From positions 1 through 64,000 of the forward strand of contig CANFQX010000014.1 in NCBI GenBank assembly GCA_947449255.1: a DNA stretch of 64,000 nt, given 5' to 3'. Numbering within the stretch: position 1 is the first letter of the stretch; the number at the start of each line of letters is the position of its first letter. The DNA is from Pseudobdellovibrionaceae bacterium (GTDB taxonomy: Bacteria > Bdellovibrionota > Bdellovibrionia > Bdellovibrionales > Bdellovibrionaceae). The notes beneath the pieces are model-generated. The model ran no database searches and had not been told where the DNA came from. It was given only the letters and a program-made list of their open reading frames with translations. This document shows, piece after piece, positions 61,467-63,700 of the stretch. The position numbers and the translations under genes were made by a program.

Positions 61467-61868
61467 CTATGGTGCAACTTTTTTGCGCAATAATTTATTT
61501 TCTGAAAGATGCTTTTTTGAATCCAAGCGCCTACGGACGGCACTTCGTTTGGGCTTGGTGGCCACTCGTCTTTTGGGAACAAAGAGGGCTTTTTTTAAAA
61601 TAATTTGCAACTTATTGATGCAGGATGATCTATTTTGGTCTTGATCTCTGTGCTCGTCACTTCGAATAAGAATATCCCCATCGTCAGTCAGTTGCCCCGC
61701 AAGGTTTGCTGCCAGCCGTAATTTAACAGCTTCTGAAAATGCCTGAGAGCGTTGAAGATTCCAACGCAGTATCGCTGCTGAGTTGGTGCGATTCACATTT
61801 TGACCACCGGGCCCTCTGGAGCGAGCATAAGTGAATTCTAATTCATGAAATGGTATAATAATATCCAT
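61467..61868 (-). CDS. arfB: Peptidyl-tRNA hydrolase ArfB (YaeJ)
   Basis: A 133-residue release-factor-like protein. The GGQ motif is residues 21-23 in RSRGPGGQNVNRTNSAA; the C-terminus is a basic tail (KKALFVPKRRVATKPKRSAVRRRLDSKK) that in ArfB enters the mRNA channel. It rescues ribosomes stalled on truncated mRNA. It lies just upstream of the TauE gene. Confidence 0.95.
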   Translation of the reverse strand: MDIIIPFHELEFTYARSRGPGGQNVNRTNSAAILRWNLQRSQAFSEAVKLRLAANLAGQLTDDGDILIRSDEHRDQDQNRSSCINKLQIILKKALFVPKRRVATKPKRSAVRRRLDSKKHLSENKLLRKKVAP

Positions 61869-62112: not shown

Positions 62113-63700
62113 ATGATGTTTGCAATGATCACCACAGCCTTAATTGGAGTCGTCGCTGGTGGCGCTTTTGGCTGGGCCTTGCACAGGTTTCAAAATGCTC
62201 GCACCCTGCGCTTGGCTCAAGAAGATGCCCAAGAAGTTATTGATGAAACAAAACAAGCCATAGAATTTAAGCTGCTTGAAGAAAAAGAGCGCATTCAGGA
62301 AATTGAAGCCGAAATGTGGACCAAGGTTGAACCTGACTTGCTAAAAACAGAAGAATCTATTGAAGATCTTCAAGAAGTTGCCAACGAAAAAAAATTAAAA
62401 GCGGATCAAATTATTCTTGAGGAAAAGAAAAAGCTTCAAGAGCGCGAAGTTGATGTTAAAAATCAGGAACTTTCCCTGAAGTCGCAGGAATCTGTGATCA
62501 CCTCGCTGAAGGAGACGCAAAAATCTCTCAACGCAGAATTCGTCGAGAAACTGACCACAAAACTGAATACTTCAACAGAAAGTGTTAAAGATCAGTTGAA
62601 ATTAGTTTTAGAAGAAGAGGCTCAAAAACGCGCACATCGACTCGCCCAGGAGCACGAGGAAGACACCAAAGAGCACGCCGAGTATCGAGCAAAAAAAAAT
62701 ACTAGCTCTCATCATAGATCGATTTTCTAGACCCTATTGTGCCGAGCGAGGCATTGGTGCTGTTAATTTTCCGGATGTCCAATCTCGAAAGTTCTTTTGT
62801 GATCCTGATGGCAACAACATCAAGGCTGTGCAAGAATTTTGCGGCTGTGACATCATAATTGAAGAGGGCTCTGAAATGGTTGGAGTTGCTGGTTTTGACC
62901 CGGTAAGAAGGGAACTCACTCGCAGAACATTAGAGCGAATCTTCAAGGAAAAAAGAAGCATCACACCTGATTTAATAAAAAGAATCGCTGAGAATCAAAA
63001 GAAAGAACTATTTAAAAGTATCAAGGTCGATGGCGATGCCCTAGCAAAAGAACTTAAACTTGAAAACCTCAATCCTGAAATAAGACAAATGATGGGTTCG
63101 CTCAGATATCGCTATTCTTTCACTCAAAATCAATACTTTCACTGCGGTGAAGTGGGTTGGATAGCGGGATTGCTAGCCGGAGAGTTGGGAATCGATATTA
63201 AAAAGGCTCGTCGCGTTGGAATGCTTCATGACATTGGAAAATCAATGGACCACGTCAAAGAAGGTGGGCACGCCGTTATCGGCGCTGAGTTTATTGCCGA
63301 ACGTGATGAAACTCCAGATGTTGTTCATGCGGTGCGAGCACATCATTTCGACGAACAACCCTCTACAGATCATGCCTTTTTAGTGATTGCTGCCGATGCT
63401 ATCTCGGGGGCTCGCCCAGGCGCTCGGCGCTCTACAATCGAAACCTACAATCAGAAAGTTTCTGAACTGCAAGATATTGCACGAAGCTTCTCTGGAGTAA
63501 CCGATTGTTTTGTCCTCAGCGGTGGAAGAGAATGCCGAGTCATGGTCAATAGCAAAAAAGTCGATGATCTCCACGCCCTGGAATTGGCTAAAAAGATTGC
63601 AGCTCGTATCGAAGAAGAGTGCAATTACCCTGGCCAAATCAAAGTGGTTGTGGTCCGTGAAACTGTCATTGTCGAGCAAACCAGGAAGGAGCTTGCCTAA
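62113..63700 (+). pseudogene. rny: Ribonuclease Y interrupted by a one-base frameshift in an A9 run
   Basis: The first frame (62113-62730) gives the N-terminal membrane helix (TTALIGVVAGGAFGWAL) and about 170 residues of coiled coil up to YRAKK. After A9 at 62691-62699 it runs into non-homologous residues and a stop at 62730. The other frame, read with one A fewer, continues KKILALIIDRFSRPYCAERG, then the KH domain (NNIKAVQEFCGCDIII, GFDPVRRELTRRTLERI) and the HD domain (MLHDIGKSMDH), ending ARIEEECNYPGQIKVVVVRET. Joined, the protein has 528 residues, the normal RNase Y length. GAGGAG precedes the ATG by 6 bases. It starts mRNA decay at the membrane. A downstream GTG at 62828 could start only a fragment. 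Confidence 0.85.

Follow-up and report, generated by a model that had tools for sequence, protein, structure and literature searches.

A recent or apparent frame break in what is probably the only HD-competent RNase Y gene of a Bdellovibrio genome, and reciprocal KH and HD motif loss between two RNase Y paralogues of Bdellovibrionales

In many bacteria mRNA decay is initiated by RNase Y, a dimeric enzyme with a KH and an HD domain. Within the HD family the metal ligands are needed for cleavage. RNase J1 and J2 of the Firmicutes are a paralogue pair found in a complex, one of them catalytically weak or inactive. RNase Y of Bacillus subtilis dimerises via its N-terminal coiled coil and probably also via its C-terminal region (PMC9775385). 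Slippage of RNA polymerase on A runs, for its part, mostly adds one A (PMC5574713, PMC6260861); rescue by slippage has been proposed for frameshifted endosymbiont genes of Blochmannia (PMC3017870) and was shown for Citrobacter tssM, where an A11 run yields mRNAs with 10–15 A (PMC4256274).

The window, by which we mean the whole 64,000-nucleotide stretch analysed, lies on contig 14 of a Bdellovibrio genome (3.21 Mb in 34 contigs, estimated completeness 99.97%). Near its end a run of nine A, with the letters AAAAAAAAA, divides an RNase Y gene into two frames. This split gene is here called rnyB, and the other paralogue is referred to as rnyA or A-type. The parts of rnyB are as follows:

62113..62730, plus strand: rnyB 5' ORF, encoding the N-terminal membrane helix and the coiled coil as far as about 62690; the last 12 residues before the stop are out of frame
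62691..62699, plus strand: A9 run, the site of the frame break; A8 or A11 restores the frame, while A10 leads to KKKY and a stop
62693..63700, plus strand: rnyB 3' part in the next frame, with KH, HD and C-terminal region

The frame opened by the ATG at 62113 yields 205 aa, the last residues being AKKNTSSHHRSIF before the stop at 62730, and the 3' frame holds 335 stop-free codons after the run and is open to 63700. That these are consecutive parts of a single RNase Y, as the first-pass annotation had proposed, is borne out by the family model TIGR03319, which the 5' part matches at profile positions 3–186 (31.4 bits; 29.1 in the genome search) and the 3' part at 185–512 (351.5 bits; 353 in the genome search); the curated cut-off of 454.35 bits is for the full length, and the two pieces score separately against it. 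The orthologous proteins from two relatives (G004, G019) each align as two pieces with a 4-base overlap at the A9 run. With Pfam models the 5' ORF scored 28.6 bits against RNase_Y_N (PF12072), slightly below the cut-off of 32, and the 3' part 55.9 bits against HD (PF01966), and KH_1 gave no match in the 3' part. When the run length was varied in silico, A8 gave 528 aa, in agreement with the earlier statement that one A fewer joins the frames into 528 residues, while A9 gave 205, A10 197 and A11 529. Separate expression of the 3' half was considered and rejected: the first possible start codon in its frame is GTG 62828, which falls inside the KH domain. The 64 kb contain 33 eight-base poly-A or poly-T windows where 43 would be expected, so that the A9 run is unusual solely in its effect on the frame. 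Divergent from rnyB, on the minus strand at 61467–61868, is an ORF that resembles the ribosome-rescue factor ArfB in having an RF-1 domain (GGQ) followed by a basic tail.

Alignment to other RNase Y genes placed the following motifs in the 3' part:

62801..62812, plus strand: KH loop position, with DPDG replacing the canonical GREG
63140..63142, plus strand: HD ligand His (YFHC)
63227..63232, plus strand: HD ligand pair His-Asp (MLHDIGK)
63341..63346, plus strand: HD ligand pair His-His (RAHHFDE)
63395..63397, plus strand: HD ligand Asp (AADA), absent from every A-type paralogue read

All six HD ligand positions of rnyB thus keep HHDHHD; the histidine at 63140–63142 is presumably a ligand, as in HD domains generally. 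The KH loop reads DPDGNNI where canonical genes have GREGRNI and does not conform to GxxG. In a structure prediction of a rnyB orthologue the KH region was modelled fairly confidently, the degenerate loop being predicted between two helices, and the HD region had pLDDT below 50 and was unusable. At the sequence level the KH-HD part has no match among solved chains.

A family profile search of the genome returned a second, uninterrupted RNase Y on contig 16 (C16:29973–31523, 526 aa, TIGR03319 595.8 bits, above cut-off), in a region read on the minus strand (L111 4970–6550; G000:C16:29970–31550). In its KH loop GREGRNI is perfectly kept, but the six HD ligand positions read QHNHDF in place of HHDHHD. 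Compared with canonical genes of the order it has LLHNIGK for LLHDIGK, AHDEDEKP for AHHEDEKP, HAAFIL for QAADAL and LNQS for YTHS. The first-pass annotation had held that a second intact rny elsewhere in the genome would count against its reading of the split gene. An uninterrupted copy does exist, but its HD motif is degenerate, and redundancy by way of it was rejected on that ground; the contig 16 copy cannot be assumed to replace rnyB. That rnyB is an old, redundant pseudogene replaced by this second copy is accordingly very improbable, the presence of an uninterrupted RNase Y being set against its missing HD ligands and against the state of rnyB itself, as described below. An uninterrupted second copy from a family search is therefore no proof of redundancy. 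Annotation by family model would call the contig 16 copy an active ribonuclease Y despite the lost HD ligands, and A-type copies across Bdellovibrionales likewise pass the family cut-off without the full set. Judged by its conserved residues, and if the ligands are needed for cleavage, no RNase Y of this genome other than rnyB would have an HD site able to cut. Because the contig 16 HD site is degenerate, a cell deprived of rnyB would have no HD-competent RNase Y left, and if the frameshift is real the strain makes little of it.

In 23 other genomes of the genus that were examined rnyB is one open frame of 529–646 codons, and no frame break was seen in any other rnyB gene found. In the comparison of run length in close relatives that had been suggested earlier, A9 is absent from every orthologue read, the same site being encoded with shorter runs or with an in-frame A8 (G007, loci L027/L037; also L046 and L060), and the run is not conserved. 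The lineage has 25 changes in rnyB at otherwise invariant sites, mostly conservative (K25R, V248I, D391E, S443T) and none at ligands, as against 10 unique changes in the contig 16 paralogue. The end branch of rnyB is rather long at 0.15, in a quick tree only. Accelerated decay was considered on account of this branch and rejected, since gene by gene the relative rate of the rnyB 3' part is 1.66, within the 0.93–2.23 of 13 neighbouring genes (paralogue 1.35). Given the long branch and the 25 against 10 unique changes, selection on rnyB could be mildly relaxed. Neither a further lesion nor the loss of a key residue was found in rnyB; with no second lesion, ligands kept and a rate in the range of its neighbours, an old pseudogene is unlikely, and because the 3' frame is stop-free and every ligand is kept, decay seems not to have begun. 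We infer that the break is recent and that rnyB is functional in the species.

A gene maintained throughout the genus, sound in every other part and differing by a single base in a homopolymer is also what would be seen if the true run were A8, the gene intact and the ninth A a base-call or assembly error. We give this reading serious weight, a little short of an even chance, and lean slightly towards the ninth A being a real base. What speaks for a real base is a survey of homopolymers covering 336 kb (260 kb from contig 1 together with stretches of contigs 2, 14 and 16, with A9 and A10 runs included and a partial homology check of ORFs): among about 111 A or T runs of at least eight bases within ORFs of 100 aa or longer, breaks coincide with two, rnyB and a transposase remnant. 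Homopolymers are thus generally well called, and the survey does not support the idea that the assembly is poor in this respect; comparison with relatives gave no frameshift besides rnyB. The transposase is IS66-like and lies at the start of contig 1 (L097 42–739), with an A9 run near its frame change. It was considered as a second A9 frameshift (G000:C1:380) and rejected, as its PF03050 pieces (4–69 and 222–283) mark an internally deleted remnant and not a clean slip. Two further places in this assembly carry A9 runs in or near reading frames. The next gene downstream of rnyB, a response-regulator-like ORF of 145 aa at C14:64120 with intact orthologues of similar length, has an in-frame A9 on its sense strand (L110 120–128; G000:C14:64120–64128), and on contig 1 an uninterrupted 287-aa ORF has three A9 runs in a span of 50 bases close to its start (L100 1266–1313; G000:C1:61266–61313).

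If the ninth A is real, RNA polymerase might slip on it, so that a fraction of transcripts with A8 or A11 would give full-length RnyB beside the membrane stub. The first-pass annotation had considered the run long enough for this, and as to length it was right, A9 being within the slippery range as in Thermus dnaX (PMC1088944); the favoured slip, however, gives a stop. In common with dnaX, the A11 of Citrobacter tssM and the Blochmannia genes (PMC3017870), the frame junction of rnyB lies in an A run in the 9–11 range, between halves that are otherwise intact. The differences are that dnaX is in frame at its templated A9 whereas rnyB is out of frame at A9, and that tssM is rescued by an added A whereas rnyB needs −1 or +2. 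Rescue is disfavoured because the commonest slip, one inserted A, meets TAG at once after KKKY, and in E. coli runs seldom lose bases in this way (PMC5574713). Programmed slippage would lead one to expect a run conserved among relatives and a favoured slip that restores the frame; the run is not shared with orthologues, and the favoured slip does not restore the frame. RNA structure downstream of the run was considered as a stimulator of slippage and no stable one was found (z 1.04). Programmed slippage is poorly supported, leaky rescue at most is possible, and we regard rescue as a whole as unlikely.

That rnyB has recently suffered a genuine loss of function, whether tolerated or selected (for instance in prey-independent culture), is less unlikely than rescue by slippage yet still improbable. 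Mutations in the RNA-degradosome genes rhlB and pcnB are known to help prey-independent culture and strengthen such growth in bd0108 backgrounds (PMC11323537). A gene for RNase E/G is present in the genome and would be available as another decay enzyme, while RNase J gave no match above cut-off there, and the cell may therefore survive without RNase Y; given RNase E/G, the cell might dispense with RNase Y, and its loss could be an established one. A transposon screen of B. bacteriovorus gives 201 genes as essential for axenic growth (PMC6561027). Against a loss of this kind, nothing indicates that the genome derives from prey-independent culture, and the other rnyB genes found are unbroken. 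The bd0108 locus was considered as a sign of such culture and proved uninformative: the tail could not be detected in this species and was found only in another genome of the genus (G005), where it is identical to the Bd0108 tail published for B. bacteriovorus (PMC3818213).

The three readings, error, real loss and rescue, overlap within one best explanation, which we consider probable: the gene for the sole HD-competent RNase Y has been maintained, and its break is either recent or no more than apparent. Under this explanation rnyB, which forms with rnyA the RNase Y pair of Bdellovibrionales, would have been kept by selection until the recent past. The ninth A would have been added very recently to a Lys-Lys run (AAA AAA), lengthening it by one base, or would be an error of base calling or assembly over a true A8, and in neither case a conserved recoding signal. 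If it is real, most of the product should be a 205-aa membrane and coiled-coil stub with neither KH nor HD, and full-length enzyme would come from rare A8 or A11 transcripts only. The three options listed in the first-pass annotation (pseudogene, error, slippage-rescued gene) were the right set, with two of them weakened, the old pseudogene by the lack of any other lesion and slippage by the −1 or +2 shift needed.

As a frameshift the split is unremarkable. What is new is a pair of RNase Y paralogues with reciprocal losses, one of the KH and the other of the HD motif; this order-wide complementary pair is the more interesting result. It was seen in each of the 47 two-copy Bdellovibrionales genomes with both paralogues read. 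Copy A keeps the GxxG loop and has lost at least the last HD ligand (Asp to N, F, Y, C or H) in 47/47, and copy B keeps all six HD ligands and has a degenerate KH loop, likewise in 47/47. Three B copies carry GADA or TADA variants, and by a column-based count their HD ligands are intact. In single-copy canonical genomes both sites are intact (18/18 read). Ten further genomes had two matches in the class search; for these one side was read and agrees with the pattern. In about a dozen two-copy genomes from outside Bdellovibrio, Asp-to-Asn is the one difference between the A copy and the canonical ligand set. Judging from the residues lost, the A copies are presumably inactive, least securely so where this is the sole ligand change.

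Among the genomes read, none was found with B but without A, or with B beside a canonical copy. Copy A occurs by itself in G063 (99% complete) and in four less complete genomes (G034, G036, G081 and G096, 81–94%), and in G075 the end of the second gene is at a contig edge. G063, whose A-type gene has the last HD ligand changed from Asp to Asn and in which rnyB was not detected, is a probable real exception to the pairing. Two observations concern other sequences met in this search: a canonical-looking RNase Y of G040 is also in two frames, with an indel outside a homopolymer (L156; G040:C42:9277–10252), and a contig from a metagenome bin labelled Streptomyces griseus carries a Bdellovibrionales-type rnyB piece (L066) and is probably wrongly binned.

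The gene for tyrosyl-tRNA synthetase (tyrS) shares its stretch with copy A in 61/61 cases, with canonical rny in 13/18 (some stretches being short) and with copy B in 0/48. Linkage of tyrS to A and not to B places A at the ancestral locus and makes B the moved copy. In a quick protein tree the A-type sequences group together (support 99) inside the canonical set, and a single branch (100) sets off the B-type sequences on one side; long branches leave the root uncertain. Tentatively, and from conserved motifs, RNase Y in Bdellovibrionales may be an obligate two-gene partnership in which rnyA would bind RNA through KH and rnyB would cleave through HD, as a mixed dimer or oligomer; we put this somewhat below an even chance. 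That, in addition, slippage on A9 limits the amount of active subunit in this strain seems distinctly improbable. With the KH and HD motifs surviving in different proteins, the pair would be a natural separation-of-function experiment for the question of how the two domains work together in the dimer, and the prediction is that neither protein cuts well alone. No earlier report of complementary RNase Y paralogues was found in the open-licence literature, which is not proof of novelty.

Compared with RNase Y of the Bacillus subtilis type (rny, TIGR03319), rnyB (about 527 aa in orthologues) has the same membrane helix, coiled coil, KH position, fully liganded HD and C-terminal region. It differs in having no KH GxxG, in having a partner devoid of the full HD ligands and, in the present genome, in being split between frames. 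With the RNase J1/J2 pair the likeness is that of two paralogues of one RNase, one of them weak or inactive, or predicted to be so in the case of RNase Y. The folds are unrelated, however, and the RNase Y partners, whose complex would be a predicted one, have each lost a different motif.
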